Assembly: GCA_963669155.1 (NCBI GenBank)
Contig: OZ022577.1
Coordinates: 12,395,395 to 12,459,394 of the forward strand
Source: Arbacia lixula
Taxonomy: Eukaryota; Echinodermata; Echinoidea; Arbacioida; Arbaciidae
DNA length: 64,000 bases
Direction of reading: 5' to 3'
Every line of letters begins with the position of its first letter. The first letter of the stretch is position 1. The position numbers were made by a program, and so were the translations under genes. Below are positions 13,483-44,737 of this stretch, one piece after another. The notes beneath the pieces were generated by a model, which searched no databases, had not been told where the DNA came from, and worked only from the letters and a program-made list of their open reading frames with translations.

Positions 13483-14466
13483 TTAAGACATTTGTACTTG
13501 GTTGAGCCACTCGCTCTCCAAGACTTCTCCTAGCGTGAGTCGTTTCTTAGGACAGACTGTCAGCATGCCCCTGATGAGATCTCTGCACTCGTCTCTCACC
13601 ACGGGTCCGACAGGCCTGGCGCTGTCATGGTTGCTGCTACTACCCGTCCCGCTGGCGAAAAGGTTACCCGCGAATTGCGCTTGGAGTATCTTCTTAATGT
13701 TCTTGACGTCATCACCGAACGGCATGCACCCACTGACGAGGATGTAAGTGACCACGCCCAGGGCCCACACGTCACTCTTAAGCGGATTGTACGGCACGGA
13801 TTGGATAATCTCTGGGGCGGCGTAGGCGGCTGATCCGCAGAAGGTCCGGCTAAGGCTCTCCTTGTTGGCGGATCGCACAAAGCCGAAATCGCTGAGCTTG
13901 ATGTTGAAGCGGGCATCGAGGAGGAGGTTCTCGCATTTGACGTCACGGTGCGCCACACCTAAGCCGTGCATGTAGAGCAGAGCCCTAGCCGTCTGCAAGC
14001 TCCACTTCCGCGCCAACACCTCTGCGACGGCGCCCTTCGACACGGTACGCACATACTCCAGCACGTCCCCCGACTCCGCGAACTCCAGCACCATGTAGAT
14101 CTTGTGGTTTTGCTCAAACCATTCGTGCGTGCGCAGAACGTTCGGGTGCTGGAGCTGTCGAATGATCGCCAGCTCCCGCGGGAGAAAGTTCTCCTGGTAG
14201 TCACGTGCAGCCCTCCGTCTGTCCACGATCTTCACCGCGAATCGCCTTCGGGTCGACTTATGGACCGCTAGTCGAACCTTGGAGTAGGTACCCGAGCCCA
14301 GTTTGTGAGCCAGGCAGAAGCCACGACTGAGCATGACAGTGCCATCGTTGACGACAGTTTTGGCTGGGCAGCTTTGATCCTGCGTGGCAGTTTGTCTGGT
14401 TGATCGTGAAATGGGTGGATTAACAATTGAGCTGATTTTGATGCTTGTTTTCACTGCTGCCTTCAT
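13483..14466 (-). CDS. Testis-specific-type serine/threonine kinase (TSSK family), intronless
   Basis: This is a complete 327-residue protein kinase in one exon. The start ATG is supported by an in-frame TAA three codons upstream. Domain elements are: glycine loop LGSGTYSKV (about residues 56-64), beta-3 lysine in FAVKIVD (Lys79), catalytic loop HRDVKCEN (173-180), DFG (193-195), activation segment [15 protein letters not shown] (205-219) and DVWALGVVTYILVSGCMPF. All catalytic residues are present, so it should be an active kinase. The NFLPREL motif, the TFCGS.AYA.PE segment and the small size place it in the TSSK family, which acts in post-meiotic spermatids and sperm flagella; the exact paralogue is not assigned. 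A Ser/Thr-rich stretch of about 50 residues precedes the domain, and the ORF ends shortly after helix I. Lack of introns beside an intron-bearing relative suggests origin by retroposition or intron loss. The coding region is GC-richer than its flanks. Confidence 0.9.
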   Translation of the reverse strand: MKAAVKTSIKISSIVNPPISRSTRQTATQDQSCPAKTVVNDGTVMLSRGFCLAHKLGSGTYSKVRLAVHKSTRRRFAVKIVDRRRAARDYQENFLPRELAIIRQLQHPNVLRTHEWFEQNHKIYMVLEFAESGDVLEYVRTVSKGAVAEVLARKWSLQTARALLYMHGLGVAHRDVKCENLLLDARFNIKLSDFGFVRSANKESLSRTFCGSAAYAAPEIIQSVPYNPLKSDVWALGVVTYILVSGCMPFGDDVKNIKKILQAQFAGNLFASGTGSSSNHDSARPVGPVVRDECRDLIRGMLTVCPKKRLTLGEVLESEWLNQVQMS

Positions 14467-14641
14467 CTTTGCAATTTACTTTTTTTAATGAAAATTTTAG
14501 TAAAAGATATGTCGTGGAAGACTCAGTGCGCTGCTCAAATTTCTTTCTAACGTTTGTCAACTGCACTCTGTTAGTGTTGTATAGTAATGTTGTTTAATTT
14601 GGGGAGGGTCCATCTCTAAGTAAAAGGAAGGGTGGTATTGT

Positions 14642-17248: not shown

Positions 17249-20200
17249 ATGTCTTCTCAACCACAACAACCGCTCACCGCGACACCGACGACAGCACCGA
17301 CGGCGGAGGAAGTGATGAAAAACATGGCGGGAACGACGTCGGTGCGTCGCGTGATCAACGAGGAGGTGATGCTGAACAAGAAGGGGTACACGCTTGGGCT
17401 GATGCTAGGGGAGGGCTCCTATGCTGCCGTCTACTCCTGCCAGCTCAGCAACAACCGGGGCAAGTGTGCCATCAAGATCGTCAACAGAAAGAAGGCACCC
17501 AAGGACTTCCTGGAGAAGTTTCTGCCACGGGAGATTAAGATACTGAGTCAAGTCCAGCACAGGAACATCGTCAAGTGTTTCGACATTTTTGATACTGGAA
17601 ACAAGGTAAGAATGAATGTATTTACTCTCGAAAGTTGAAGCTTATCATAAGATAGGCCTATGCTTGTATATTTCAGAAGTTTATTATCCGGAATCTCTCG
17701 AATTGGCCGAACCGCTATAGTGAATCTTGAAAAAAAAATAAAACCTTTAAAAACTTATTAGCGCAATGACAGCTTACGCGGAATTGAAATATAGGGTGTG
17801 CTCTTGTACAGTTTGTTCACGTTTTTGAAATAGTACCGAAGGATTGCTTTTGGACAGGTGTACCTGAATGCCCAATAAGGTATTTTTTTCCAAATTTGAG
17901 CTCGATTTTGTATAAAATAAAGGTGATCGTTTTTGGAAAATATTCTTGAAACAGGCGCAAATATGGGATGATTTTTGTACTTAGAGAACGATCATGCGTT
18001 ATGCCTTCGAATAGCAAGTGACACCACCGGGGATGGAGGTGTGGATGTGAATAGATAGGGAAAGGCGGTTGTCGTGACTTCATTAGGCAAAGCATGAAGT
18101 GAAGCAAATAACAACAAATCGATTAGAGAAACGTCAAAAAGTCATTTAGTTATCATCAAGGTGGCGTAATTGATAATTGTTTTAATAACACGATGTGGAT
18201 TATGTGCTTTCAATATGTGATAATTGGAAACGTTTGCGACTATGTTTATATTGTAATGGAGGAATAGATTAATTGGTTGATTTATTGATTGATTGACCAA
18301 TACATTGATTGGTTGATGGATTATCTTATGTTCAGGTCTATATGGTGCTTGAGATGGCTGGGCACGGGGACCTGCTGGATTACATCAAGCTCCGCAGGTC
18401 GCTTACCGAAGAGAAGGGGCGGTCGTTCTTCGTCCAGATGGTGGACGGAGTCAACTATCTCCACAACCTCCACATTGTACACAGGTTGGTCAATCTTTCG
18501 AACAAATACAAATGCACTTACAATTATTTATACAAATTAGAAACATTAATGGAGTGCGTACTAAAAGTCTAAAAACGGAATGAGTATAATTCAATGTGAA
18601 AACACACCCAATGAATCATCACATGATTAGTATAGATATTACATGAATATGCCTAAGGAAACTTAACTCTGAATCTTCGAAGATATTAAAGGTTCATACG
18701 TTATGTTGAAATCAGTAAAAGCAGATAAACCATCTTTAAGAGAAGAAAAAAAAAAACATGCAACAGCAATTCATGAAGAAAACTTAAGGTAGATACATTG
18801 GTAACGTCGACATGAAAATGTGATGTACATGAACATGGTTGATCGGGGTGGGTAAGGGGGGGGGGGTTAGTAATCTACATGTTCACTATTAAATTTTGCA
18901 ATCAAATATTCATTGTATCTGTATTCAGAGCAGGAAGTCAAGTGCTCATACATTAACCTCATATCTTCTTTTCAAGTAATAATTAATGTCTTTAAACCGG
19001 TACATCACACGTAATTAGTTGCCGATCTGAGGAGTGAGCACATTTAAAACTTTATTTCAAGTAGTCTAATTTTGCCAAAGCTGTCACCAATACTCTGAAA
19101 TATCTTTATAGGTTTTAACTAGCCATTTATTATATGTGAGAACACGGGGGAAATTACGTTATGAGACAGGTGACAACATATTGTTTGACATTCATGTCAA
19201 TAGACATTGCAGTAAGGGGATGACTATTTACGAGTGAGAGACTGCAAATACGATACTGGAAAAGAAGACTGACACATAACAATCAGAATGAATTTATCAA
19301 TCTCCTGAAAATATAAAACCACATGATCATACTTTCCTCTTTGGTTCCAACACCTAGGGACATGAAATGTGAAAACATTCTCTTGGACGCTTCCAACACG
19401 ATCAAGATTTCTGACTTCGGCTTCGCGCGTTATATGCAGCCGCAAGACTTGAGCAAGACGTACTGCGGCAGTGCTGCATATGCTGCGCCAGAAATCCTCA
19501 GAGGAAATACGTATAATGGTAAGCTCCATCTCCTTGTGAACTTTAATTCAACGCCTTCAATACTTACTCAAGGAATCATATACTCAGAATTTCATAGTCC
19601 CACTGACAGCATAATTTTCTTCTTCATTTTCTTCTCTTCTTTTCCGCCTTTTGTGTTTCTTTGTGGTCTTGTTTTCCTCCCTTTTCCTCTCTTTCATTTA
19701 GTGCTTCTGTTTGTTCTTCTTTATCCTTCTCTACTTTATCTTACTATTTCTCCTCCAACACCACTTCCAATCTTCAAACGGACAAAACAACACCCCGAGG
19801 GCCACATATCCGACAGCGGCCCTTCATGTATCATGACGCCCCCTTTATAGACTGATAACATATCAGTTTTAAAAAAATAAACAGGAGGCTGGAGCTCGAT
19901 GAGCTCCTTAATAATTCGAGTTATTAAAACAATTTTGATGACACGTTTAAGTGATGATACTGGTCACGTAAGTAACGCTCATTCCATCTCTAGCCTATGT
20001 CCGTTTATATTTTGTCTCTTTTACTCTTCAAGGTATTGATTTTCTAAATGTTCAAGTTCTGCAGTTACCTTTATCAATCAAATTCGGCTACATGTATTAT
20101 GTATCACAATACACAATTAATTATCCTAATATTTTCCATTCATTTACAGGATGGAGCGCCCTTTCGTATACTACTGGATGTATGCCTACATTTTCTTTCA

Positions 20201-24957: not shown

Positions 24958-27900
24958 AGTGATGATGATAGTGATGACGATGACAGTGTTATGGTGATGA
25001 AAAACAGACAAATGCAAATTAGGTCAATGTGTGAAAGCAAAGTTTTGCTTGAGCTGACCTTTGTTGTGACTTCTTTGGCAGGTGAGGGGGCTCTATCCTT
25101 CCTGGGAGGGGGTGCTCCATAAAGGTAGGCGTCGTTAGCGATGGCAGACTTGCTGTACTCCATGGCAGGGGTCTTCAGTCTCTCTGGGGTGCTCACCTGC
25201 AAGATAAACAAAGTCCACATCCATTGAACAACATAAGGCAGTAATACATCATTAAGTAACTACAGGTAAAAATAAGTTCCAATTGAAGAATAAGGAGAGA
25301 AATTTATCATATCCATGCAATAGTGAGATAAAATGGACGACCAGGTATTGATAATAATAACAGCTGTGGGAAGTTTTTGCACGCTAAAAGTGCTACAAAT
25401 TCTGATCACATTATCTGACCATTTTACTTAGGTTTTTCTTGAAGTAGAGCTCTTTCATTGGCAAAATCTTCCCATCTTATTTCAAAGTAATGTGGAATAC
25501 CATACATGCAAAACCATGGTCTTGGCAAGAAAGGATTGTTCTTTGCATCCAGATTGATCCTGAATGACAAAGCCCTTCAAGAGGTCATTTGCATAATGGT
25601 CATTTGTGTAAATTAGAGTGACAAATTCAAATGTGAAACTGTGAACTATTTAGGCGATCCATACTATGAGAAAATTAGTTTCATATTCATATTTTGTTAC
25701 CATATATCGTTTATGTACAAGGAATGATTTGTTGCAGATAATGAAGCATTATGGATGATCAGTGAAACTGTATGGGTGATCTATCAAGTTCAGGGTTTTA
25801 TTTGTAAAGGGGACACCAAATAAATCCTTAACTAGCACCCTGATCTATGGAATCAACCAGACGCAAGAAGTTACTAGAAGACCCTGACTTGTTTCCATGG
25901 CAACCCAAACAGCACCATGTTGCTGGTTTCCACTGACCCTGTAGACGGGTAGTGCCCTAAAGACAGCTCCCTGCCGCAGCTCCCCTGTCTTGAAGCTCTT
26001 GAGATGGTCGTTGTAGAAGTGAGGTTTCTGAAGAGCCTCAAAGAACTTCTTATCCTCCGGCTCCAGCTTCTTGGTCCTTGTCTGCTGGTAGGCCGATCGG
26101 CGGAACGGTTTCCACCTGAAATGAGAATGAAATATCAGAATAATCTTTCTTCTTCTTTGTATAGCATTTAAGATTTGTGTATCTAATGATCTTTTTGTGG
26201 CATTTAGTGTTCTATCATATAATGTAACAACTTTTAACTTCCAACCCACAAATTTACAAATAAAATTGCATCTTTCTGAAATTAAATATTCCAATATGTC
26301 TAATTTCCCTTCTCATTCTGAATCTGTTATATAAATATCATTGTACAGAATGCCTTCATTTATTGTCTGTTCAAGAGACCTGTTTTATGAGTATGGAATT
26401 ATCAAAGTATACCTGCCAATAGATAGACCATTACAATATTTGAATACTCAAGTCAACTCCTTGAATTTTCTTACATACTTGATAAACCTTAGCGACTCTG
26501 AAAGTCTTTTACATCAACACTCTTATCCTGAAAAACCTTCTGAAGCTTCTCACTCTCATGCAATGTAAACAAGTAAGCACTGTGTCATTGCAAAAACAAT
26601 ATTAGGATATATCCAATATCCATCAGATTTGTTTATTTAACTTGTATCCACTTTCTTCAAGTATCTCTCTTGACTCAGCTTGATAAAATACTCGAGGCTG
26701 CTTGCCATGATATTGACTTCACTCACTTTCCACTGTCAAAGATGAGCGGGTACTCGTAGCTCTGGGCGTTCTGCTTCTTCTTCTCGCTCTCCCTCTTGGG
26801 GGGCAGCAGGGGCCTCTCCACTATGTCGTAGGGGAGTGCTGCCTCGCTGGAGCTCTCCGCGCTGGGGTAGTTCCAGGGGCGATGCTGGCCAAAGAACCCC
26901 ATGAAGTGGCCTCTCTGGGGCGCATCTGAGTACCACACCCTGATATACAATAAAGCAGGATAGAAACTGGATTTAATTTCTGGTTTTCTGTGCGAGTGGC
27001 CTAATAGGCATATTTTTTTCTGGTTTACGACAGAAGACTTGCCGAAATATAGAATATGGATGTTGATCAATGCTATATCATATAGCATTATATAATACTG
27101 ATTGACATTGGTTTTCCCCAATGGTGTACATGATATACCGGTATACAGAATACAATATTGATTGACATAGCTATTTGTAAAAATGGACAAGCAGGTATAC
27201 AAGGTTAGCAAGATTGCTTCAATCCAAATATTTTTATTAGACCACGGTATCATTTAGAGGGAATATACTGTAATGGGAAGACAAAAAGCCTTCAAAAGGT
27301 GATCATGAGCAAACTTCTTGCCAATGGTCTTAAATTCATGTATTGTCCATTTTAGAAACTTGCTGAAAGTTATCTGTCCTCAAATGATCCATATTTGGAG
27401 TAATGAGTGATTAAATAAAAAATCTTAAAATTGTTCGGGCCAAACATTTTGAGGATTTGTCCACAGTACATACCTGACTGATCAATCCGTGGAGCCTGAG
27501 ATGATGGATTCAGTCCTAACGCTAATCATAAACCCTACTAGGATGTTCACAGCACATACCTGACTGATCCACCATTCTAAGGATTTGCCCTAGTCCTAAT
27601 CCTACTCGGACGTCCAGCACCTACCTGACTGATCCATCCGTTGACCCTGAGATGATGACCTTCATCCTGTCAATGTGGAGCAGACTGACGATCTTGCTGA
27701 GGTGGCCCCTCCAGCTGATCAGCTGCTGTACAGTGCCCTGTTGGACAGCAAAGATTGCATTGAATTGAACTTTATTTCCATCACATGTATGTACTGGCAT
27801 ATAGATTAACAAGAGGAAATGATTAACAAGGATAACCTTTCAAAATGTGTGAATTCATTTCACTTTTATGGATGAACAGAAAGTCATACTTACACCAGAT

Positions 27901-30900
27901 GAACCTTATTTCCTAACAAATGATCAAGCATTGACGTCCCTCTCTTTCTTATTTCACATTCTCCTCTTCCTTTTCTTTTCCTACTTCTTTTCTTTACCCA
28001 CTTATTTCCATTTCCTCCTTTCTCTTTCCCATTCTTTTATTGCTTGATCCCCTTTATCTCTGCAAAAAACTAGAAGACTATATTGCTTTAACCTACATGT
28101 TCATCTTTTAGTGGGTCCTCCAAAAACTCTGCAACATTCCACATGGTGATATAGCCCTCTGCAAAAAAAGAAGAAGAAAACATTGAAACGTGTATGAATA
28201 AACACACATTTTACAAAAGCATAATCCAGTTTATTTTTAACTAATTGCAGTAAAAATCAGCTTCATTCTAAAAATATATGTAAACAGAGGTAATATGAAT
28301 CTACTAACACACATATATTTCTAACTAAATATGAGTATGTGTCTAACATTTTGAAATCTCCGTCTAATAATCATTGGAAAAAGTGGTAAAATATCATTGA
28401 TTTAACCTCAATATCAGTAAGCCTACATTGCAAAAATATCGTCTTAATCATATTTAGTGCAGCAATAATATTGTGAATATAAATGGTTATATTCCTGAAC
28501 TTTATTTGAATCGGTGACCAAAGTGCAAACTTACTGATATCGCCAGTGACGAGTATGTTGCAGTCTTCATCTGAGCACACACACGTCACGGCTGATCCCT
28601 GCCTCTTGGTCAGCGGACTCAGAGTTCTTACAACCTCTCCCTAAAGAAAGAGGACAAACACATTGCATTCATGAAGTAGGGATGAGTCTGAACAATCTCA
28701 TTCAACCATCATCAAATCCATAAGACAATAAAATGATGATATTCCCATTATCATGATGAATATTTTCATGAATGTACATTCTTGCTTGTACACTTGAACC
28801 ATACAATGTGAACATTCAGTATCTATATGCATGGGTGGTATTCTGAAATGTTCACTTAGAAAAAATCTTATTCTAAATTGTAGGTTTTCCCCTAACTGGT
28901 TTCTGAACTCTCTCCTAACTTTCCTCCTAACTCCCCTCATATATTTTCTCTTTAATGTATGTAAAAATGATGCAAATAAGAACTTTTAGGGGGATTGATA
29001 TTCCAGAATGAGTCCTATTACCTCCACAGTCCAGAACCTGATGAACGAATCTGCGTGGACCGAGACCAGAACTGGCTCATATTCTGTGACAATCATCTTG
29101 GCGTCGGGATCCTGATTGCTCTCGGCTTTTGACCCTTGTCTTTCTATATCCTCCATCTCTCCATCGTCTCCATTGACTCCATCACCATCATCGTTGTATT
29201 GTTCTGCAACATCCATGTCCTCATCTTCAGTCCCATCTCTGGAGTCTTTATCACGAGGGCTCTGGATCCCCTCATGGTCCATAGTTTGCTCATTTTCATC
29301 ATCGTCATCCTGTTTCCATGGACACAATGCAATTTTAATGACAGTAACGTCAATTCATCAGTGAAATAATGTGAAGTGGTGCCTGAACATATAATGGCAA
29401 AGACATGGATCTGTATAACTATAGCTTTCGTTTTTAAAATGAGTTCTTCTAAATGAATTTACCTACATATTATTTGCATGTTTTACGAACCAAATTATTT
29501 GTTTCTGGGTGAACACATTGTCCGTAAAGAAATCAATGACCCATTTAATGGAGCTTCAAAATTAAGAGACCAAATTTAGTCGATGTGGACTTGGTGATCA
29601 TGTAATAGCAATATAAAGGATTAAGGAAATACAAGTTTTTGAGGAGATAATAAAACACAAAGTTTCCACAATGTGATATTTGTTTCTTGAGTGTTGGATG
29701 CACATTTGACATTAATTATGTTAGATATCAGATACAATCTGGTAATAATGGTAGCTCCACTATATCTGTTACCCAACCCCAAATAGAAAACAAGGTGGTT
29801 CGTGAACCACGAGTCTCCCTGATCTCGCAATCAATAAATTTTGGTGAAGTTGTTTTTCAAATATTTGAAATTGTGCCTAGATTACTTTTGACCTCAGCAT
29901 CCTCATCAACACACAGGTGGTATTACCCAAGGCTCATTTGCACTAAGTATGAACACAGTTGATGCAGAAATAAAGAAGTGAGAGCAAGTTTAGCAAAAGC
30001 TTAAACATTTTTGTAACAGACTAACAGACCAACAGACTGACAGACTAATAGGAAAAGTGATTACTTGGTCTCAGCCGAACTTCGTTCAGGTGAGACAGAA
30101 GCTGTCCACTTCCCATACATGCATTACATCAATTAGTAAGTATTGAAACCACACATATTTTATGTCAGGACAGATGTTCTCATTCAGATACTCACCTCAT
30201 CATCACTTCTCTTCTCCTTTGGTGACGGAGACGAAGAATCACTCTTCTCATCTCCATCTTCGTTGATGTCATTCAACTCCGATCCAGGTGTTTTAGGAAT
30301 CCGCTTCTTGCTAGTCAGTTTCCTATAAGGAACAAACCACAGCGGAATTGCCTCCATTAATGTCACATGCTAGTTTGGAACATGAAACCAATCCCAATAA
30401 ATCCATATGATACAATAATGAAACATGTCAAGAAAATAAAAATGCTAGTCAGCTTCCTATAAGAAGCAAACCACAGCGGAATTGCCTCCATCAATGTCAC
30501 ATGCTAGTTTGGAGTATGTAACCAATCCCAATAAATCCATATGATACAATAATGAAACATGTCAAGAAAATAAAAATGAGGAAAATACGATAATTTGTTG
30601 AATTAGAGTCTTAGTTAACTCCATCAAACAAATTGAATGACAACCATTAATATGACTAAAACCCTTTACATTCACAAATCATTGTATGCATATAGCTTTG
30701 AAGGCACTTCAGATCAAGCTTGTCCAATAGTGTCTGCAACTAGGTGTAACATAAATGGCCTGCTTTAAAAATCATTTTATTTACACCTTTCTTGATCTAA
30801 GTAATAAGAAGAAAAAGAGTACCACCGGAGGGGGTTCATTTTATATTTGTTTGCCAAATTTGGCTAAAATGCTTTAACACAACAATTAAGTTTCAATGAC

Positions 30901-32763
30901 ACTAAAACATAAATTTTGATGGGACATACCGCTAACAATCTTTAGCAAATGAGTTATCCGCTCTCTTGTTGGTAAATATATTGTTTTATTGCAACCTAAA
31001 TTTCAGAATGAAGAGTAGCACAGTGTGACAGAAAAATGACTTTTTTTTCCCACTTACTTGATGAAAGCGGCGTATGTGTTAGTTAAATTGGACTTTACAG
31101 CTACAACTCAATGATTAAGCTTCAATGCAAAGACTGATACTTCTATCTCAATTTTTGCTGGACACGGACTGATGACCCAAGGAAACGAGTTGTCCAGTCT
31201 CTTGTTGGTTGGACTTACTTGATGAAAGCGGGGTCGGGCCTCCTGGTCCTGTGGACCAAGAACCTGACCATGTAGACCTTGTGAGGAGTAGGGCTCTTGA
31301 GTCTGGTCTCATCCTCAGGATTGGGTGGCAGGGGTGGCAGCTCAAAGCTGCAAGAAGAAGAAAAACAGTGGATATTTGAAAGATATCTTTCACTAATCAG
31401 TTATTGTTCATGACAGATTGCGACAAGATACGTACAAAAGTTTGAAATTTGCAAGAAAAAGAAATGATTTCTGAATACATCTTTTACTATCCATTTATTG
31501 TTCATGAGAGATGGCCACAGGATAGGTGCACAAGGTTTGAATACGTAAGTTAAGGAGAAAAGGTCATCTATAATGTTGCTATATATGTATGGTAATGTAT
31601 TGAATGCTTGTCTATCAGGTGGGACAAAAGGCTTCAACAAAAAGTAGGCCTCTGTCTGAAGCCTATTTTATAGGGCGCACATAGATAAAGTAAAAAGTCC
31701 CTTGATTTTCTCGACAATATTTAAAATAAGCTCTCTGTAAAAAGACATTTGAATTGAACTTAATGTTTTTCAAGAGTAATAAAAATACCTAATAATTATA
31801 TTGTATTCTCTTACATGTTATCAATGGCTCCCCTTGAGATGTCCCACATGAGGATGTTTCCATTGCTACATCCTGTTGCCATGACATCCGGCTCAAGGAA
31901 TGCTGTGCAGGTCATCTCGTAGTAGTGCAAGATGTCATCCTACAAAGAAAGAAAAAAGCGGATCTATTTAAAATGCAATTTTTCACACAACTAAACAGTG
32001 GATAAGTAACAATTAACCCTTCTTGATCCATTAAGAATGGCATTTTCAGATGAGTATAGAAATTGAATTGTTTTCAATAATGTTTGCAATCAATTTTCAA
32101 GTTCATTATAATTTTGATCTAAATGAATGAGAATTTCTGAAGGCAGGCACAAGAAGTTTCAGGAAAAGGACCCTGAGACAGTTGAATCCATCACTCACCT
32201 CTTTGGCCATGTTGGTGACCTGTGAGATGCTGTGGCCGATGGAGGGGAGGGGAGGGGCCTTGTTGAAGGGGCTGACACTGCCCCCTCCCCGGGCACTGCT
32301 GCTGGTGCTGGCCGTGGGGCTGTGGGCTCCCTGGGCGTTGCCAGGGAGGGGAGGGGGCAGGAGCAGGCTGGTGGGCAGCTGGGTGTAGCCAGAGAACTCG
32401 GCAAAGAGGACAAGATCACCGTGGTCCGCTGGGTCCTACGGGACAGGAAAGACAGAGGAAACTTTATTTGTGAAGAGACATTGTAGGCATACACCTAGTA
32501 GTAACAATATCATTCTCCATCCTGCAAATGAATGAAAACAAACAATTTTGCTTTCACTTACTTTCATCCTGAAGTTGAAAAACAACCGTACACAAACTTC
32601 CGTCAATCATTAATTGCAAAGAAAGGGTAGAGCGTGTTAGCAACAATTATCCAACTTCACAACCTAAGTAACTTTACAACAATCGCAAGTACACAGTAAT
32701 GTTGAGTTAGTTACCACCCATTCTGTCTGAAGAATAAAAACGACATATAAACCTAGAGCACCT

Positions 32764-32796
<33 letters not shown>

Positions 32797-34139
32797 TGAA
32801 GGCCCCTATTCTCCTTCTACCCACCTCCAGTAGCTTGAGTTTGTTGTTCCAGCCCAACACAGCGATGCACCTGTGGGGCTTGGGGTCATCAAACTTCTTG
32901 ACATCACAGTACAGCATAGCCGTGATGGAGACGTCCTCTTCCTTGTCTGAGTCAGCCCAGTGGGTCCAGGATCGGATCTCCTGGCCGCTGCCAAAGTCCC
33001 ACACCTTGATGGACCCTGTATTGTAGGCATGCGAATATAGAATGAGACACATAATGATTACAGTTAAACATGTACATACAGAACACTTAAACTATTTGAG
33101 CTAGCTAGCTACAGAAATACACAATCAGACAGTAAACTGAATGTTTCTTACCATCCACCGCTCCAGAGGCAAGCCTGTAGCCGGTTGTATCGATGGCCAG
33201 GGCAGTGACCTCTGTGTTAGGACCGTGGGACCCAGTCACATGATAGACTGCCTTACCAGATTCTAGCTCCCAGACCTGAGGGGACAAAGTAGACAGATTA
33301 GCGTGATTACCTACCATTATTTGTCCTTTTCTCTCAACCTAGTCATCACCAGAGCACTTTAAAACGGTAGATATTTTATCTCAAATATCAGTTAAGCTCT
33401 TGAACAGTTACAGTTAATTATGCAATCCAGCATCATACCCAATTAATCTTTGGGGAAACATGGAACTAGTAATCGCCAACAGAAGGGGGAGGGGAGGGGG
33501 TGCTCACGCCAAGCTTGAGGGTTAGAGCTATTACATTTCCAATTCTCCAAACCCACTATTGGGCCCATTCTTTTCACAGAGTCATACTGACCTTGATGAC
33601 GGACTCAGTGCAAACAGAGACCACCTGGTTAAGTTCGTCATTGCAGAGGACGTGGCTGATTGGTCGGTCGTGGGTGTGGGGCACCTGCATGGTATCCTGC
33701 ACTGTTCTAGTGAGTGGCCACACATCTAGGACACTCGACCCTGCGTGACGATATTACATATTAAGTATTATTCTATTGAGTGACCTCCATGACACTGTCC
33801 TAGTGAGTGGTCACATATCCAGACATAATGTGTTTTGTCTATTCTGTCCTACTTTGACAAAAGAAAGCAAGTGACAAATCACTCAAATCTGGCTTATTGA
33901 TACATTTAGATTGTAACCAGCATTTCCTGTATACAGACAAAATCTGGAGAAGAAATATTAATCTTGCTGCAAGATATTTAATCTAACATGATGTGGTATT
34001 TCACTGATGCCAATGCATGTGAGATATACATTTTGCTCATTTGCTCATAAGAAATGCCTCTTTTGTTAGTTGCTCCCTTTTTTCAAAGTAAGGCAGTATT
34101 GGTCTACTGAATGTGTGTGTGTGTGTGTAAGAGAGAGAG

Positions 34140-34180
<41 letters not shown>

Positions 34181-37100
34181 CCTGCCACAACTTTAATAAA
34201 TTAGATGGTATGACCATCATTATTTATGATCCCCCTCCAAGAAAGAAGAGAATAGTAGGTCAAACTAACACATATCCATCTTTCATTTGATCCATTCGTA
34301 ATGGACCACATGCCTGAGAAATGATCAGAGACTGGTGCTCACCTGTCATGAGTCTCTCATGCTTCTCATCAAACACCATGCAGTGAATCCGCTTCTCACC
34401 AGGCCTGTCCTCATTGTCCGTAAACACCTGCAGACTCGTTAGCGTGTGGATGTCCCATATTCTGAACACCTGCAAGTACATGTGAAAAGAGGCTATGCAT
34501 GAGATTATTTTGGGGATTTGGTGGTCAGTGCGGATCAATGCATTCTACCCATCCGTGCATATGAATTTGGGAAGTAAACAAAAAAAGTAGAGACGTATTT
34601 AATGAACATCTCATTCTCTGTAAACACTTCTAGGCTGGTCACCGTGTGACTGTCCTATATTCTGACCACCTGTAGTTTGTGTGAAAAAAGGTCATGGCAT
34701 AATATACAGCAGACTGTTTTGAATTGGTGGTCGATGTGGATATCCATTCTACCCAACCGTGCATATGAATTTGGAATGTAAACAAAACGAGGTGGAGACG
34801 TATAAAATGAACCTCTCATTGTCCGCAACCACCTGTAGATCGATGAGCGTGTGATGTCTAAATGAATGTTCACATCAAATGGGGTAAGAATAGAAAACTA
34901 CAGCTCAGTTAACGTCTTTTGATTATTATTTAATCTCAGGGATATTGTTCATTATTCTTCAAGGTTATGTGACATTTATGTGCTTGTTAACTTTCCTTGA
35001 CGAATATAGTACATATAGTGCTTGAAGTAAATATGTATCACATGTTTCAAAATACTGCCCCCCCCCCCCACATTTTTCTGCATACTGCTAAGTCTACAAA
35101 ATATGATACTTGTTGTGACATCATCAAAAGTAGAAATAAGTGAAACAATCAATAAAGTTATGCATATATAATATAATTCATCATTAATATCCGCAAGTTG
35201 CTTACAATAGGATCACATATTTACACACCATACTACCAATCAACCTTTTTAATAGGAATAATTGTTGCTTTGTCAGAAATGTCGCAGCTATCTAAAGAGA
35301 GAAAGAATAAGTATACAGACATGCAGTGATATTTTGAGTAAAATTTCAGGTAGCCATTGCAATGAATAATTATGCACACAACTGTATCTACTGTTCAGCA
35401 TATTCTTCATAATTTGATGATATCGCAACAAGTATCATGATCTGGGGGATTAAGGGAAGTATGGCTTAACAGTGTTCAGAAAAACATATTAAAAAAAATG
35501 TAGTACAAATATCAACATTCAGTGAATTTGTGATAAATTAAATAATATGCATCAACACTACCAGTAGTCATCAAGCAGTTCAATGGCATGAAACCTTGAA
35601 ACATCTGCGGACTTGTGATAGTATGGATTTTTTACTTTCCGAACACCTGCACACACGCATGAAAAGGGGCTCTGAATAAGATCGAACAGCAAAACATTTT
35701 TAATTGTTTTTTCTAATATCTCTGTCAATTCTCATTTCAATTCCTTGAAAGCACCTGCAGCCTGGTGATAGCATGGATGTCTCATAATCCCAATACACAC
35801 AGGAAAAGGGACTATGAATAAGATCCTTCAGCAAAACGGTTTTTAATTGGTTATTTAATATCCCCGCCTATTCTCATCATCTCTGAAACACCTGCAGACT
35901 GGTGATAGCATGGATGTCTCATAACCCCAATACACACAGGAAAAGGGACTATGAATAAGATCCTTCAGCAAAACAGTTTTTAATTGGTTATTTAATATCC
36001 CCGCCTATTCTCATCATCTCTGAAACACCTGCAGACTGGTGATAGCATGGATGTCTAATATCCCACCCACACATGTAGATGAATACGCACCCTGGCTGTT
36101 GACAAGCTGATGACGTGCTGGTCCTTCTCGTTCACGGCCACATCAATGATGGTGAAGAGGTGACCAATCATTTTGCCTGTTGGGCGAGAGAAGATGTGCG
36201 GATGCCAGATCCGGACAATCTTGTCATTTCCACCCGTTGCTATGACGTTGGCGCGAGAGCAGAACGCAAATGAGTTGACTCCTTTGGGAATACTGATGGA
36301 CTTGCATGGTCTGTAGAAATGGAAAAAGAAAGTATTTCTGAATGAGAAATTAAAAATAGAATGTGTGTTCTTTTATATGTGTATCTGGTACTATGGGAGG
36401 TGTAAATGAATAAAACTTATCATGTTGCATCTTGCATTTCCACACAAGAACTGAAGATGAAGTAAGGCTAAAAGAATTTAGCATATAAAATTTCCTAAAA
36501 TATTAGCCATTCTATGGTAAAATTCTGTTAAGTATTTCTTCAGCTATCTGGTGAGATTCCACATTGACCTACTTTTTTGATATATGATCCCAAACCTTAG
36601 TATGTATTTATAGAAATATATATATCTTTAAATATATAAATATCAAAGTTTCTTCAATTATCTAAAATAAGTGTAACATTTCAAGAATTGATCTAGATGG
36701 TTACCCATGACCCTAACTTGCATTATAAAGATATCATCCAGATGGTTGAACAGACAACTGAAAAAAACTAATGTCATCAGCCAGTTCTTAACACAAAAAT
36801 ATTAAGTGTGTTCAGGCAGTGCATGAGTGACAGTATTTGCTTAACGCACACTAGAATCAGAGATACGCAGCCGATGGGAAACACTTACTGGTTATCTACA
36901 ATCCTGTCCACAGACTCCAAGAGAAATGAGGTGTTGCTGCTGGGCGAACAGGAAGCAAAGCACCTCAGCTCAGGGAAGTATTTGATCTTGAGTACCCAGT
37001 TGTCATGGAACTTCCTCTTCACTATTGGACTAATGGAAAGAAGAGAAAGAAGACAAAGAAATCAACATTATCCTTTCACTCCAAAAACAGAATATCTAGC

Positions 37101-40100
37101 AAATATCCTACCTACTAGATGATAAAATCAATGACATTTTTGCATGATCAATCACTTTCATCAAAGTATCTGATTAACTGCAAGCAACTATCATGATCTA
37201 TCATAAATGACAAAACTACAAATATGTCAGAGATCAAACAATGTGTTTATAGATGAACTCTTTATTTTTGCTGTTACTCTCCATAGAAATAGATCAATAG
37301 ATCAATCTGAATGAGCAGAAGAAAAATAAACCATTCAATTCTTTGAATAAATATGTATCTTCTGGGACTAAAAGCAATGAAATGATTTATTGCAAATGGT
37401 GCATAAGATACATATTATATGGCTTATGACTTAAACATTTGAACTCCTATGGTTTATGCCTTAAAAACTGAACTTTTGGACTAAAAACGTACTTAACTGC
37501 CCTATTAAGAATTGAGATACATGGAAAAACAGCAATACAAATTTTGACCACACAATACTCACAGATTGAGCCTAATACAGATCATCTTTTTAATGCCATA
37601 TATATATATTCAAGTTGGTTTAGATTAAATACTGGTAACATAAGAAGCACACATTGAACAGAGGCATAAATACACATGAAAGATCTGACACAGAGATAGA
37701 TAAAGAGAGATAGATAAAGAGAGTATTGTACCTGGTAGGTATTCCCCATATATTTCAGTTTAGTTACACAAACAGTGCACACTGAAAACACAAGCTCAAA
37801 GACAAAGAAAAATGTAGATATTCCCCAAATATCTGACTGTGCTTAAAAGTTCCTTCTCAATCACACCATGCAAAGAAGTGTTATTATTGCACATGCGCAA
37901 GGTAGCTTCTCATGTAGTCTGATCCGCAGACTCACAAATTAAAATAAGTGTCATTATCTTTCTAACTTCCACACAGGTTTTTACATCTGCTTATAACAAA
38001 TTCTCCAGAGATGGATGGCCAACTATGTGATGGTGGCATTAATCTGCCCTAATCTGACAAAAGGAAGCAACTAACAGAATAGACTTTTCTTGTAAATGAG
38101 CAAAATGTGTCTGTCACTTGCACTGGCATCAGTGCAACACCACATCATGTTAGATTGAATATCTCGCAGCAAGATTAATATTTCTTGTCCAGATTTTGGC
38201 TGTATGTAAGGAATGCTGGGTACAATCTATCAACATCAATAACCCAGATTTGAGTGAGTTGTCACTTGCTTCCTTTTGTGAGAGTAGGGCAGTATTAGTA
38301 TCGTTATCCATCTTTTGTTTTCATAACATAACATACACAGAATATTTGCTTACTATGTGATGGTGGTAGGCTCAATGACCAGGTTTCCATTGCGCTTGTC
38401 GACCTTGGCGTGCTTGGTGTTGAGGTCCTTGGCAGCAATGGTGAGGAGGCTGATGAAGCCCTGGTCGTCACCAAAGAGAATAGTGTCCTCGTGGAGGTTG
38501 CCTGTGTGAGGCACATGGACCAGGCACTGGACTGAGTTGTCAGTGGGCTTGATGCAGAAGATGTTCTGTCAGGCAAGAAGAAGAAATGGAATAGTTCAGG
38601 GACATCAAGATGTTATATTATATTGCTAATTTACATTATTGTGAGAGGATCTTATACCTCCATACAGACAGTTCTATAGTAGCCTGTGGTACATGCCCAG
38701 CAAGGCTGCTAGAGTTGTCAGGGAAGAATCCTCAAATTAGTTTTCTTTATTCATGAATCTGTTGAGCTGTAGAATATATAGAGCTGTATGCTTGGCTCTT
38801 GGAGAGAGTTCATACATGTTGGGTTTTAAGACAAGAGGTAGAATATGGATAGTGGAGTGCATCAGGGCCTGAAGTCTTTGCTTTTAATAGTGGTGGACTA
38901 TCAAAGGGCAGTGATAACAAGGTGATTTGAATAAAATGATATATTAATGAGAATTTCAATATATCAAATACTAACTAAAACAACAACAAATTTGACAATG
39001 CTCACTTTCCGAGTAACACTTCTTTCCATATTTAAAGTTAGAACCCTCTCAATAAGGACATAAACCAACTTTTTTCCTACCTGGTTCTTCCCTTTTGCCC
39101 GATGATCCCAAACACAAATACTCCTCTCAGTACAGCAGGCAACCCTCCGCAGACTTGGTAAATAGTCCACTCCAGTCACCCAGCAAGTCTCCTGTGAGTG
39201 GCAGCAAACAAACATGAAGTTAGCCTGGCTTCCAGGCTGTTGGGCATTTCAATCCAACTACAGTATTCAATAAACAGGTCTGGCTGCAGTAGACTTTTCA
39301 TTCCCAATTCCTTCTCCGCATCAAGGGAGAAAAATTGAGAAGTAAAAATTGACTGGTCATGTGAGTACTAGATTCCTATCTTTAAATCTGAATTAGTCAT
39401 GTCCAAAAGCCTGAAGGTCAGGCTAACCTAACATGAAGTATGCAGACAAAACATCGGTGAAGGATAGGGGCAAGGGCTAATATCTATGTTTTGTCAGCAA
39501 ATATAAATTTCATTGTAGCTTCCAAAATGATGATGTTAACAGTATAGCTAGTTAAATGATTGCCATATTCTTTCAGGGCTGTTCCCCGGGTTACCAAAAA
39601 AAAGCTTCAGGAGGTGTGAATAGCCTTGTATAAACTCATGCTCTTCACTTGTTCCATTTAGTATTAGAGTGTCTCTTTGCTTTGTAGGTGCATGCGCCAG
39701 GATGGCTTTACTTCTGGCAGACACAACAGGCAAAGTAGTGACCTAAGGTATTGTGAGGTGCATCAAATATAGAACCATTTGCCTAACAGGACATAAGCTT
39801 TGGTACAAAAAATAAGTGGATGTAGAAAACAGGGATTGATTACTTCAGACAATGAATACAATTTTTAGCACAACACATAATAACAGTCTGTATTAAATGG
39901 TGTTGAAAACTCCACATAAATATATCAAATTAATTTCTGGTATTGCAGCTCATGTTCTACCACTTCCATGACATCATATTTATCATTTTGTTATGTTTTA
40001 TGTTGATCTGAGTCGCATTTTGGTTTACAGCCTCGTCATATGTATTTGTTTGTATAATATGTGTCATGTTACTCTGTATTATTGTATTATTTGTATACAG

Positions 40101-43100
40101 GGCCTCCAGGGAGAATCATGCAAGCTCACTAATGGGACTACCCTGTTAAAAAATGCCTACCGGGTACATTTTTTTTTTGTAATTTCCTTGATTTCTTCCA
40201 TCTCCTTGTGTGTACTTAGAACAAATCAGCGTGGAACCATAATTCATCAGGTCCTTTGCATTTCAGTTTTGTTTAACTTTGGCAAACATTCCAAGAAGGC
40301 CCTTCACAGCTGGCGACAGAAAGGAGTTCCTTGGCGCCATTTTGGGAGACATTGATATAATCAATCAAAAGACTGTTATCTATATAATCTCAAAGATCAA
40401 ACAATACAACAACACATAATTGCAAGTAAAGTAAAAAAAAAAAAAAAAAATCATTCCCCAGTTTAAAGATTAAATTGAAAAATAGAAAGATAAGAATCTT
40501 AAACTATGTGTAGGCTGTAGCTACATTTCAGAAATCTAACAATATCTTAATTATCAGGCTTGGTGAAAAAATGTATTATGCAAAGAATTGCTCGAACACG
40601 TAATTATTTTCACCGATCATTGTTAGACATTCTTATATATGCAAGTTCATGACAAAAAATCTAACAAATCTAAATTCTTTTTTAAAGATATCTGTTAATT
40701 TGGTTACAATAAATACAACACATTGTCTTCATTCTTAATTATCAAGAAGCTCTGCTTCATCTTCAGTTCTTGTGTGGAAATGCAAGATGCAACATGATCA
40801 GCTTTACTCATTTTCACCTCTCAATGGCTCATAGTAACCGTGAATAGGAGTAGTGCATCTACTTAGGAGAAGTAGGAGAGGCTATAAGTAACATAATATA
40901 CCCTGGGATTTCCAACAAAGAGAGTCCAATCCAAAGAATTTTACAACATTTGAATGGCAGAAAAGCTTGACCATTGTTCCCACTCTGTGAGAATAATCTA
41001 TTGTTTGCGGATTGGATTACAACACCCAGGTAAACAAGAGCTGCATAGACAGGCTGTTCTATTTTGGGGAAGGCTAAGTGTTTGTGAAGTAAGTGTAATC
41101 CATTGAAAGGGGAGCTGCAGAGAACCCCTGTTTTGGATATTTTCAGGTGCATGCTTCTATTGGGGCATAGCAGGAAACAAACAATGTGGCTCAATGGTAA
41201 TGGTGTAGTAGTACTCACAGGTCTAAAATGGAAACTAGTCAGAAATATGTAGTTTCTAACATTATTTTTTTTTTCTGAATGAAATCATAATCTAAATCAA
41301 GTAATCAATTCATTAAGTCTCTGATTAATTGTACTTCAGTGATTTTAATCGCCTACCTTAGCAGGTTTTATGTTGATGTTTCCCATATTATATATTCATG
41401 TAATATATAAGCATGATATACTTCTATCTTGAAAATGTACATATGATCTTGTGCACTTCACATATCCATAGCAACAGAGAACAAACAGGATTTAAGGGAC
41501 AAGTTCTGCAGTAAAAAGGAGTCAGAAATATGTAAATCGCTATGTACACTTCTCTCATAACAATGGATAACTATTAAACTTCTTCATACACAAATAGTTA
41601 TCTTACACATACCATACTTAGCATTTCACAGGTCCATGACAACAGACAGCACAAATGCTGTACTTTACTAAATTAAGTTCAAAATAGGCAGTTGCTTTGT
41701 ACGTATATATCATATAATGGAATGTATAAAATGATTACTCATATTTTACTGTTACATGCATTCAATCTATAAATATCAATAAAAGAGGATTTGTGTCAAA
41801 TGAAATTAAACATAGAAGGCACTCTGTACATGACCAATGATAGCTTTCTGTTTGATACTTCACTATGCACAAGTACAACTCATTCCATTGGAAGCACACA
41901 CTCGATTCATGAGATTAAGTTACTGTCGTTGGTAATTTACAATGGATCAAATGTTGCAGGTATGTTTGCAGTTCTATTAAATTGGGTAAAAGTACATATT
42001 ATCCATCCAAAAACTCACAATATTTTATGATTATTAAATACTGAAAACTACTCTAAAACAACATCTAGTATACATCAAATACAATGAAAAAATATAACTC
42101 AACTCTCTTTTCTTCTGTTTCCCATGAATATTGCAGTGGATATATACAATGAATATTGCAGTCACATGGAAGTCTTACAGACTGCTTTATTATTTGTAAA
42201 TACTTTTGTTTAACAATAAAAATCACACTATACTTACATTCACATCACAACATGCTTGTAACCTCAGTGTCTGTATTGTACAAAAACAATATGGAAGTTA
42301 AAAATCATTGAACACAACATATTTCAATAAGAGTTAAAACATGCAATGCAAACTTAAACAATCCATTAATTCAACCCAATCAATAACAATTGATTCAACA
42401 GAATGCTTGACATACAATTGAAAGAAATTAAACAAAGTGCAATTACCACACACTGAATTAAAATGTGATACAATTGTGACTTCTGTTCACAAAATAGACA
42501 TACCGGTACCTAGTAATCTACGAAATACATATTGTAAAACTCACCTATAAAATCACTACAAAGGTAATTTTTCTTACATATGCTGTATAGTATATTGTAC
42601 AACATGCTTCTGTATATTACAGTTATGTCAAGCTTAAAAATAGCCCTCGTAAATCTTTTTGTAGTTTTCCCCAACCTTTCCCTGTTCTATAGGATTTGCG
42701 TGTACTTCTTTTTATAAAAGAGCATCATTACCACATAACACAAAGCTAACAACATTCTAATTGGTCACTTAGACCTTAATTACCTTGCAATTCCAGACAG
42801 ATATAACACCCTTCTGCGAGGCGGCAAGATAAACATCGACCTGAGGCACACAAGTAGCTGAATGAATGACATCTCTTCGCTTTCGGTCACCTTGAAAGGA
42901 GAAATGGCAAAGAGAAAGAGGAATCAATTTACACCTCATTGCAAATGGCCTTGATTGAACATGGCCGGAAGCAAATACATGAAACAGCCTTGAAAAAGAT
43001 TCACACAAACAATCTTGTCAGAGAGATGAAAGAGGAAAAAGATACAATTTTAGTAGAAAGAGAAGATCACAAAATAACAAAATATGTGCATAAAAGAAGG

Positions 43101-44737
43101 AAAGGAAGATGTCACAAGAGAACAAGAGAAAGACACAAATTACATAATGAACAGAGAAAATAAGCTAAACAATGACAAAGAAAGTGAGAGGATGAACAGG
43201 ATGGGTCGAAAACATATCAACAGAAATGAGAAAAGATAGAGAAGGTGAATTACAAAACAACACAATAAGATAAAAAGATACAAATCAATCAAATGATTAA
43301 AAGATTATTTGAATTGAGAACATACAATAAACAAGAAAGCAAAGAAGAAATAGCAAAATAGAACATGAAAAAAGTATTCTGAAAAAGAAAACGATTTACC
43401 AGCTGCCTCTCCAACTCTTTGTTTCTTGGAGACAGTGAAGACACTGATGTCTTCAGCGTGGGCTTGTTCTGGCTCATCCCCCGCAGACTGGAAGTATCCA
43501 AACAGCTAGGGAGGTACAACAAAACAAAAGTGTTCAAGAGTGATGATGGGGGTATCAAATCACATGGATGGACAGGTAAATTTTAAAAGCTTTTTTTAAA
43601 CATAATGCTTGTTTCATTTTGCACATCTCTTAGCCTGTCCACTATCAAACACGAAATACATTTACTAAATCTTTTGTAAATAGTGTTCAAACAAAAGCAC
43701 AATAAGAGATGCCTAACATAATATTTAATCAAAATTAATTTTGCTGTAACTACCTAAATCATTTCAAAAAGAAGAAACATGAATCGCATTTTGATACAAA
43801 CAAATATGGTTTTGCTACAGGGATCATTTGTTGGCACATTGTGAGGGGGCGTTCCATTCCAAGCTATCATCAAGCTTACCTCACTCCAGTCGACTTTTGC
43901 ATCAGGATTGTTGCTAATCTTTCTGAAGATGGATTTGAGGTCTGTGCTTCTGATGTCAGGACCAAACAGAGCTTGGATTGAGTCACAGAATGTATCAAAT
44001 CGCAAGTTTTCTGAAAATAGAAACAATGGAATATGTTACAAATGCAGTAGATTTATCTATGAATCTGAGTGGAATTAGACTATATAGCATGCAACATTCA
44101 GATCATAATTTAGTTCATATGTACGTCTGGATGAATACAAATACTTATGACCAAACAAAATGAGAGCAAACTCCAAACAAATTGAATTTTAAAAAAGAGG
44201 AAAATCACCAAAACAAATGGTACAAATCAAGAAAAGTGACAAATAAGAAAGTTACATGATTCAAAATTCGTACTCACAAACTCATGACAGGTTAATAGTG
44301 GCATGTTGCTACAAACATTGTTTAGTTTTCTTTAACAGCAACTGCAATGTTTAAATGTCTGATTCTGGAGAGGTCCATCTGATTGGTGTGTTTTGGATTG
44401 TTAAGATCTTCAACACATTAATAAAAATGTAATTAACAGAATTAGGGTAATGCTAATTAGAGGAACACAATGTAAAAAGGGTGAAAGCTGGTAGCTGCCA
44501 TCTAATCGCTCAGCTACTGTATGTATCTCCAGTTAGCAATCTCGACTGAAAGCCGCTGAACAACAGACGGTACATACCATTGATGGCCTGCCGCCGCTCC
44601 TCTGCACTCGCCTCGCTGTCTTGCTGGGTCAGTCTCGCAATCAGCTCCTCGAACTGTTCCAATTTATGCTTAAAAGTGTTCGTGGTATACGGCCTGGGGA
44701 GGCCTCCCGATGCCTTCTCGGCTGCTTTGGACATCAT
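24532..44737 (-). CDS. WDR64-like WD40-repeat protein with N-terminal EF-hand-like segment (25 coding exons)
   Basis: Exons in transcript order: 44578-44737 (A), 43880-44010 (B), 43400-43505 (C), 42784-42890 (D), 42238-42270 (33-nt microexon), 39081-39191 (E), 38354-38565 (F), 36889-37029 (G), 36091-36310 (H), 34343-34469 (I), 33592-33740 (J), 33152-33275 (K), 32825-33015 (L), 32199-32435 (M), 31815-31939 (N), 31219-31347 (O), 30196-30322 (P), 29022-29309 (Q), 28535-28640 (R), 28097-28158 (S), 27625-27737 (T), 26727-26939 (U), 25938-26115 (V), 25059-25196 (W), 24532-24627 (X). All phases agree, giving 1207 aa. An in-frame TAA precedes the ATG. An EF-hand-like segment (about 58-97, NPDAKVDWSE) is followed by WD repeats: SVWNCK, CVWDHRAKGK, VRIWHPH, FRIWDIH, LDVWPLT, KVWELESG, KVWDFGSG, LMWDISRG, RFWTVE, SGSTDGSVRVW. 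Exon M is Pro/Ser/Gly-rich, P has a basic KKLTSKKR and Q is very acidic. The layout best fits WDR64, with WDR49/EFCAB8 relatives as alternatives. No catalytic function is known; a ciliary or sperm scaffold role is inferred. Confidence 0.88.
24716..24985. repeat. (GAT)n repeat between the last two WDR64-like exons
   Basis: Imperfect GATGAT repeat with a pure stretch at about 24919-24956. Confidence 0.9.
27451..27610 (-). pseudogene. Two decayed copies of the 3' end of exon T with intact donors
   Basis: In the first copy the minus strand reads ISGSTD-stop-SV then CAG/GTATGT; exon T reads ISGSTDGSVR then CAG/GTAGGT. The second copy near 27551 keeps TCAG/GTATGT but little coding text. Both donors match the consensus better than the true one. 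Confidence 0.75.
30310..30577 (-). repeat. 134-bp tandem duplication spanning the acceptor of exon P
   Basis: Copy 1 (30310-30443) holds the first 13 bases of exon P, its acceptor CTTATAG and 120 bases of intron. Copy 2 (30444-30577) is more than 90% identical and keeps the acceptor (30457-30458). The two copies lie head to tail. Confidence 0.85.
31052..31072 (-). repeat. Duplicated donor end of exon O
   Basis: CGCTTTCATCAAGTAAGT, the last 11 exon bases plus donor of exon O, is repeated about 165 bases downstream in the intron. Flanking text is also repeated (CTCTTGTTGGT near 30970 and 31200). Confidence 0.6.
32763..32792. repeat. (GA)n microsatellite
   Basis: About 15 AG units, 30 bases downstream of the donor of WDR64-like exon L. 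Confidence 0.9.
33786..33824 (-). pseudogene. Decayed copy of the 5' part of exon J
   Basis: The minus strand reads LDM-stop-PLTRTV where exon J reads LDVWPLTRTV; again the Trp codon TGG has become TGA. It lies about 45 bases upstream of exon J's acceptor. Confidence 0.65.
33844..34096. mobile_element. MITE family with CTGCCCTA ends, copy in WDR64-like intron I/J
   Basis: About 250 bp, related over its whole length in inverted orientation to 38044-38292. Terminal inverted text is CTGTCCTACTTTGACAAAAG at the left and CTTTGAAAAAAGGG-type complement at the right. No ORF. Confidence 0.6.
34113..34177. repeat. (GT)n plus (GA)n compound microsatellite
   Basis: GT units followed by about 22 GA units, next to the MITE at 33844-34096. 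Confidence 0.9.
34611..34860 (-). pseudogene. Two decayed copies of exon I of the WDR64-like gene
   Basis: The first copy (34611-34669) has acceptor TACAG and, in the original frame, reads VVRI-stop-DSHTVTSLEVFTENE. True exon I reads VFRIWDIHTLTSLQVFTDNE, so TGG (Trp) has become TAG. The second, more decayed copy is at about 34815-34860. Intron sequence between them is also repeated (CATATGAATTTGG, GTAAACAAAA), giving a tandem unit of about 200 bp. Confidence 0.75.
35595..36062 (-). pseudogene. Four more exon-I-derived units in tandem
   Basis: Units near 35600, 35740, 35880 and 36020 each carry a version of exon I read as DIHAITSLQVF followed by a stop in the last two. A linker of about 140 bp (GAATAAGATCCTTCAGCAAA) separates them. 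The last two units are nearly identical, so duplication or gene conversion is recent. They precede exon I in transcript order. Confidence 0.7.
36364..36475 (+). repeat. Dispersed repeat, inverted relative to 40752-40850
   Basis: TCATGTTGCATCTTGCATTT and CCACACAAGAACTGAAGATG recur as the reverse complement near 40752-40815, with weaker similarity extending to about 100 bases. Both copies lie in WDR64-like introns. Identity of the element is unknown. Confidence 0.6.
38044..38292. mobile_element. MITE family with CTGCCCTA ends, copy in WDR64-like intron F/G
   Basis: CTGCCCTAATCTGACAAAAG at the left is mirrored by CTTTTGTGAGAGTAGGGCAG at the right (arms of about 35 bases). It aligns with the reverse complement of 33844-34096, including a shared GAAATATTAATCTTGCTGC core. 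Confidence 0.65.
42238..42270 (-). other. 33-nt in-frame microexon of the WDR64-like gene
   Basis: It lies between acceptor ATACAG and donor GTAAGT and encodes TLRLQACCDVN in phase 0. Without it the joined peptide goes from SVWNCK directly to ETCWVTGVDYLP, about eleven residues shorter than a normal WD40 inter-blade spacing. The flanking exons end and begin in phase 0, so skipping it would keep the frame. Confidence 0.8.

Follow-up and report, generated by a model that had tools for sequence, protein, structure and literature searches.

A WDR64-like gene of the sea urchin Arbacia lixula carries, within its introns, local copies of sequence from at or beside the edges of five of its exons (9, 10, 15, 16, and 20). 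These copies are very probably mirage-type repeats, left by several independent small tandem duplications whose outer copies decay neutrally. The gene occupies positions 25059 to 44737 of the minus strand in the window, by which we mean the whole stretch of DNA that was analyzed, 64,000 nucleotides of contig OZ022577.1 in a genome of 606,990,701 bases and 590 contigs. Its model, built from splice sites and an open frame, joins 23 coding exons at GT-AG sites into a stop-free frame of 1165 amino acids, in which the 3' end of the coding part was not located. Pfam matches to the protein comprise WD40 repeats and several beta-propeller families, and no family named WDR64 was among the best 25 of 27. 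That name is the label of the original prediction, an annotation made from the sequence alone, and the gene is known here by its WD40 and beta-propeller content. The exons lettered I, J, O, P, and T in that prediction are exons 9, 10, 15, 16, and 20 counted from the 5' end. All gene features below are given in window positions and lie on the minus strand unless noted.

Local copies at exon edges

A self-comparison was run on the whole window, blind to exon positions, at a threshold of at least 33 bits, with offsets of 25 to 2000 and low-complexity filters. It returned 24 local repeat pairs, 15 of them inside the WDR64-like gene. In six of the 15, one copy lies across an exon edge (exon 20 donor twice, exon 16 acceptor, exon 15 donor, and exon 9 acceptor twice), and in four others one copy lies within an exon, 9 to 15 nt from the acceptor (exon 10 once and exon 9 three times). 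One pair is intronic on both sides, with a source starting 11 nt from the exon 15 acceptor, while the last four link intronic copies to one another (exon 20 once and the intron 8 array three times). Every pair in the gene thus either touches an exon edge, comes no farther than 15 nt from one, or joins copies of such sequence. None of the nine pairs outside the gene came within 25 nt of any listed exon edge in this self-comparison; in an earlier repeat comparison, one array outside the gene begins 20 nt from a predicted presenilin acceptor.

Copies lie at offsets of 134, 95, 200, 67/151, and 161 from their sources, adjoining or near them, and copy-source identities span 65 to 95%, which suggests several duplication events. 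The layout is that of tandem repeats abutting or close to the real boundary, but some copies are separated by other sequence, and one array (35594 to 36065) lies more than 1 kb from exon 9. Both boundary types are affected: boundary-spanning copies are present at the acceptors of exons 9 and 16 and the donors of exons 15 and 20, and are absent from exon 10 and the acceptor side of exon 15. With several units of differing identity that abut or nearly abut, the gene supports the earlier proposal that small tandem duplications have recurred at its exon edges or next to them. Local copies were found at all five exons named in that proposal, but at exon 10 only the exon part is copied, and on the acceptor side of exon 15 only intron.

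The closest copy belongs to exon 16, where a 134-bp tandem repeat (30443 to 30578) duplicates the acceptor and the first 14 nt of the exon; 125 of 132 positions are identical, AG is intact in both copies, and the decoy acceptor is at 30456. Near-identical tandem copies such as this one and the later units of the 35594 to 36065 array are of the kind that assemblies miscount. Besides exon 16 and a 22-nt donor match, however, the copies are only 65 to 88% identical to their sources, a divergence that misassembly does not create, and we regard assembly artefacts as an extremely improbable explanation of the set.

Exon 20 has two donor copies, the nearer at 27522 to 27571 (decoy donor CAGgtatgt at 27560) and the farther at 27464 to 27517 (the same motif at 27474); one of the two matches the real edge at 47/56 positions and the other at 41/50, with GT intact in both. 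At exon 15, the donor (31213 to 31234) is repeated at 31052 to 31073 with 21 of 22 positions identical and GTAAGT intact, the decoy site being at 31058. The head of intron 15 (31077 to 31209) is repeated at 30848 to 30973 (90/139), about 80 nt from the donor copy. On the acceptor side of the same exon, the end of the preceding intron (31358 to 31446) has a copy at 31453 to 31541 (alignment 69/92) that runs to the A of AG and reads AA there, so that AG is lost. The weakest of the five is exon 10, in which 33700 to 33733 recurs at 33793 to 33825 (29/34) and the matched part includes no splice site; a wider alignment (38/51) scores 49 against a shuffle maximum of 43.

The richest set derives from exon 9 (34343 to 34469 in the gene model), with units of about 200 bp beside the exon and units of about 137 to 149 bp near exon 8. 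The larger unit consists of the intron end, the acceptor, and 60 nt of exon, and its representatives extend from 34410 to 34858: the real edge (U0), U1 (34610 to 34764), and the exon part of U2 (34815 to 34858). Across the acceptor and the first 60 nt of the exon, the nearest copy matches at 117/161 positions and the second, exon part only, at 39/46; the one AG left in U2 belongs to a site internal to the exon. The shorter units form the 35594 to 36065 array, which ends 25 nt from the exon 8 donor. This array is linked to exon 9 because its exon part matches at a score that none of 200 shuffles reached; its first unit agrees with the exon 9 edge at 62 of 86 positions, but the intron part of that unit, taken alone, is at chance level (33/200 shuffles reach its score). 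The last three units (V1 to V3) take their AG/GT from an internal CTGCAGGTG of exon 9, not from the real acceptor. Midway through intron 8, an imperfect inverted-repeat stretch assigned to neither strand separates the two groups of exon 9 copies (34958 to 35600, with arms at 34958 to 34992 and 35566 to 35600 and at 35103 to 35128 and 35413 to 35438), which may have inserted into a once continuous array.

A further candidate, missing from the original prediction, is weak: 15 nt at the exon 6 donor junction (38352 to 38366) recur exactly at 38022 to 38036, adjoining an element that resembles a miniature inverted-repeat transposable element (MITE). From the sequence, it is doubtful that this is a real junction copy. 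Two such MITE-like elements of about 250 bp are present, at 33841 to 34096 in intron 9 and 38044 to 38295 in intron 6, away from the exon 9 array. They are 86% complementary over 202 nt in opposite orientation, and one has 33-nt inverted ends.

Tests against chance and comparison with other genes

Each exon edge was scored against its adjacent intron, and an edge passed if at most 1 of 200 intron shuffles reached its score. Seven of the 44 edges in the WDR64-like gene passed (20 donor, 16 acceptor, 15 donor, 15 acceptor, 10 acceptor, 9 acceptor, and 6 donor), two of them near the threshold: the exon 15 acceptor scored 25 against a shuffle maximum of 23, and the exon 6 donor scored 30 against 28. 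The flanks used in this test were altered after the results of a first form, with longer intronic flanks (70 nt on each side) and 100 shuffles, had been seen. That form also passed 7 of 44 edges, but without exon 10, whose copy sits close to the edge, and with the exon 8 donor, which it flagged owing to the end of the intron 8 array at a distance of 25 nt; the exon 6 donor score was reached by 1 of its 100 shuffles. Aligned without their exon parts, the intron segments still exceed chance for exon 16, for exon 15, and for U0 against U1 of exon 9 (0/200 shuffles each). The shuffles lead us to reject chance similarity at both sides of exon 15 and at the edges of exons 9, 16, and 20, and, less strongly, at exon 10.

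Four other multi-exon genes in the window supplied 32 edges for comparison. Their 20 exons are approximate and incomplete, having been derived from codon-scored segments and a simple predictor; the predictor was trained on the WDR64-like gene and finds 43 of that gene's 44 edges. Among these exons, one arpin exon lacks a Pfam check, and a single-exon kinase gene has no edges to contribute. No exon-spanning copy was found at any of the 32 edges. One edge did pass, owing to an intronic array of 11-bp units that adjoins a presenilin donor. Comparing 6/44 with 0/32 edges, without the exon 6 case and the presenilin array, gives p = 0.036 by Fisher's test, while including both (7/44 versus 1/32) gives p = 0.13; both comparisons are post hoc, the gene having been chosen after the fact. 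The idea that this locus is special in its genome, also raised in the original prediction, is thus favored by one count and not by the other; it is weakly supported and not established.

Decoy sites, origin of the copies, and known repeats

Several copies keep the splice-site dinucleotides they were duplicated with, as had been predicted for some decoy donors and acceptors: AG/GT is kept in the exon 15 donor copy, the exon 16 copy, both exon 20 copies, and units U1 and V0 of exon 9. On a matrix trained on the WDR64-like gene, the exon 16 acceptor copy scores 11.3 versus 11.8 for the real site, the exon 15 donor copy scores 10.6, equal to the real donor, and the exon 20 copies score 9.4 versus 11.8; the exon 9 units keep weaker sites (5.7 to 7.3 versus 12.3). 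Use of the decoys to make alternative extended exons is unlikely because all 11 of the decoy or copy extensions tested, the only form of use considered, introduce a stop, between residues 275 and 989. Read plainly, the sequence suggests that the site on the exon side outcompetes the decoys or that transcripts spliced wrongly are lost, and the open 1165-amino-acid frame obtained with exon-side sites would be consistent with undisturbed splicing.

The strength of these decoys, together with the stops that their use would bring in, is what might be expected if selection maintained the copies to reduce or adjust expression, acting as decoy or poison splice sites, and the exon 15 donor copy is also far better preserved (21/22) than the neighboring intron copy (90/139). 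We nevertheless consider selection of this kind, which the original prediction had put forward, very unlikely. All 11 extensions tested introduce a stop, and several copies have lost their site: AG is gone from the acceptor-side copy of exon 15, and the sites kept in the exon 9 units score well below the real acceptor. Strong decoys are to be expected in any case where a copy is recent, as at exon 16, and the matrix behind the scores was itself trained on this gene.

For mirage-type repeats, the sequence of events would be a simple one. Several independent tandem duplications of about 67 to 200 bp, most of them running from within an exon into the intron beside it, would each place a second boundary beside the first. 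The splice site next to the remaining exon would keep yielding the normal product, and for this reason the outer copy would turn intronic and drift. Tolerance through splicing is the natural explanation for the persistence of such copies, since the exon-side site stays in place. In intron 8, repeated duplication of the exon 9 unit would have built a short minisatellite-like array, with the inverted-repeat stretch now among its copies. The duplications may have arisen by slippage or microhomology repair, and the copies probably differ in age, evolve neutrally, and leave normal splicing at the real sites intact.

This layout matches a kind of repeat already described in lancelets, a likeness that the original prediction had not drawn. 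Lancelet "mirages" are tandem duplications of exon-intron boundaries, reported in the globin genes BflGb6 and BflGb9 and in Adh3 (PMC3087553), and also in troponin C and PGBD5 (PMC3902484). They affect 5' and 3' boundaries in units of 10 to 72, 150 to 160, and 157 bp, many copies retain AG/GT, and regular splicing is apparently undisturbed (PMC3087553, PMC3902484). BflGb6 has two haplotypes, with 6 and 3 units, and mirages were proposed as a road to new introns (PMC3087553). The WDR64-like copies share the boundary-spanning tandem arrangement, the involvement of donors as well as acceptors, a unit size comparable to the roughly 10 to 160 bp of lancelets, and the frequent retention of AG/GT (PMC3087553, PMC3902484). 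They differ in that five or six exons of a single gene are affected, by copies that vary in identity, that one unit is as long as about 200 bp, and that two cases are not full junction copies.

Boundary duplications are also known in other organisms. Human genes in segmental duplications contain minisatellite-like internal tandem repeats at exon-intron boundaries, with 27 intron modifications remaining after manual checks (PMC2812944). Those repeats are recent, average 30 bp per unit, and alter splicing or form new introns, whereas the WDR64-like units are longer, mostly decayed, and known from sequence alone (PMC2812944). In potato, a boundary-crossing duplication created a new intron (PMC4974935). 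As in the Rogers model, that duplication, like those of the WDR64-like gene, crosses an intron end and exon start and supplies ready splice signals; the WDR64-like copies, in contrast, sit inside introns of the gene model (PMC4974935). The potato and human cases indicate that events of this type also occur outside lancelets, although the term mirage was not found applied to such repeats outside lancelets among the matches listed in the open-licence literature.

Three observations weigh against neutral mirage-type duplication as a complete account. Not every case is a junction copy, given the exonic fragment at exon 10 and the intronic copy on the acceptor side of exon 15. Because boundary repeats in human genes can affect splicing and give rise to novel introns (PMC2812944), harmlessness is not a given here. 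Finally, the placement of the copies exceeds simple geometry. A random unit of 95 to 200 bp touches an edge within 12 nt with a chance of 0.25 to 0.37, so that six of six units doing so has a probability of 8e-4 and five of five of 3e-3. These odds treat the cases at exon 10 and at the acceptor side of exon 15 as touching an edge, and they ignore both the after-the-fact choice of gene and the possibility that edge copies remain visible longer, one copy being constrained.

An edge preference may therefore need explaining, for instance by a process in which transcription, splicing, or junction base composition favors exon edges for small tandem duplication. Such targeting would be compatible with mirage-type duplication and would add a cause for its placement. 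Beyond the geometry and the clustering of all 15 gene pairs at edges, it draws on the detection of intron parts alone at exons 9 (U0/U1), 15, and 16, which means that coding constraint is not the full reason why repeats are seen only at edges. We still think it unlikely: the events are few and the gene was picked because of them, none of the 32 edges in the four other genes has an exon-spanning copy, the nine other pairs in the window lie away from listed exon edges, and two of the gene cases are intronic or exonic only in the matched part. A preference for exon edges is not established. The broader proposition, that exon edges are preferred duplication targets throughout this genome, that introns grow by accreting decayed junction copies, and that old mirage repeats are common in another animal group, seems to us similarly improbable. 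Mirage-type duplication remains our preferred reading. With successive edge duplications that vary in identity, this one gene offers a test case for whether exon edges attract tandem duplication, and its copies may also be useful for learning how decoy splice sites of high strength are kept silent and whether introns grow or are gained from such arrays. If such copies prove ordinary for the genome, they are a routine feature.

Neighboring genes and other repeats in the window

Pfam matches around the WDR64-like gene lie at 1995 to 2123 and 5234 to 5470 on the plus strand, 9837 to 10076 and 13501 to 14472 on the minus strand, 17270 to 17605 on the plus strand, and 54494 to 54754 on the minus strand, and represent an ATP synthase subunit D family, arpin, two protein kinases, and presenilin. 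We take the ATP synthase neighbor to be V-type; one of the two kinases is a long single-exon frame.

Three other repeats were recorded outside the gene. A tandem array of 93- to 94-bp units, about 3.4 copies, at 53131 to 53501 lies 20 to 38 nt before the predicted presenilin acceptor at 53111, and no exon sequence was matched within it. A direct repeat at 62031 to 62313 (about 100 bp, 83% identical, offset 184) is outside the listed exons. Two direct repeats 2.7 kb apart, at 55778 to 56015 and 58563 to 58767, share 25 identical nt and a further 179 nt at 82%.

Elsewhere in the genome (G000), WD40 matches include four on contig C6 near 27.40 Mb and four on contig C266 at about 10 to 15 kb. Three of these have equal scores between the two contigs and their spacing agrees in part only; the pair is possibly an alternative haplotype or a paralogue.

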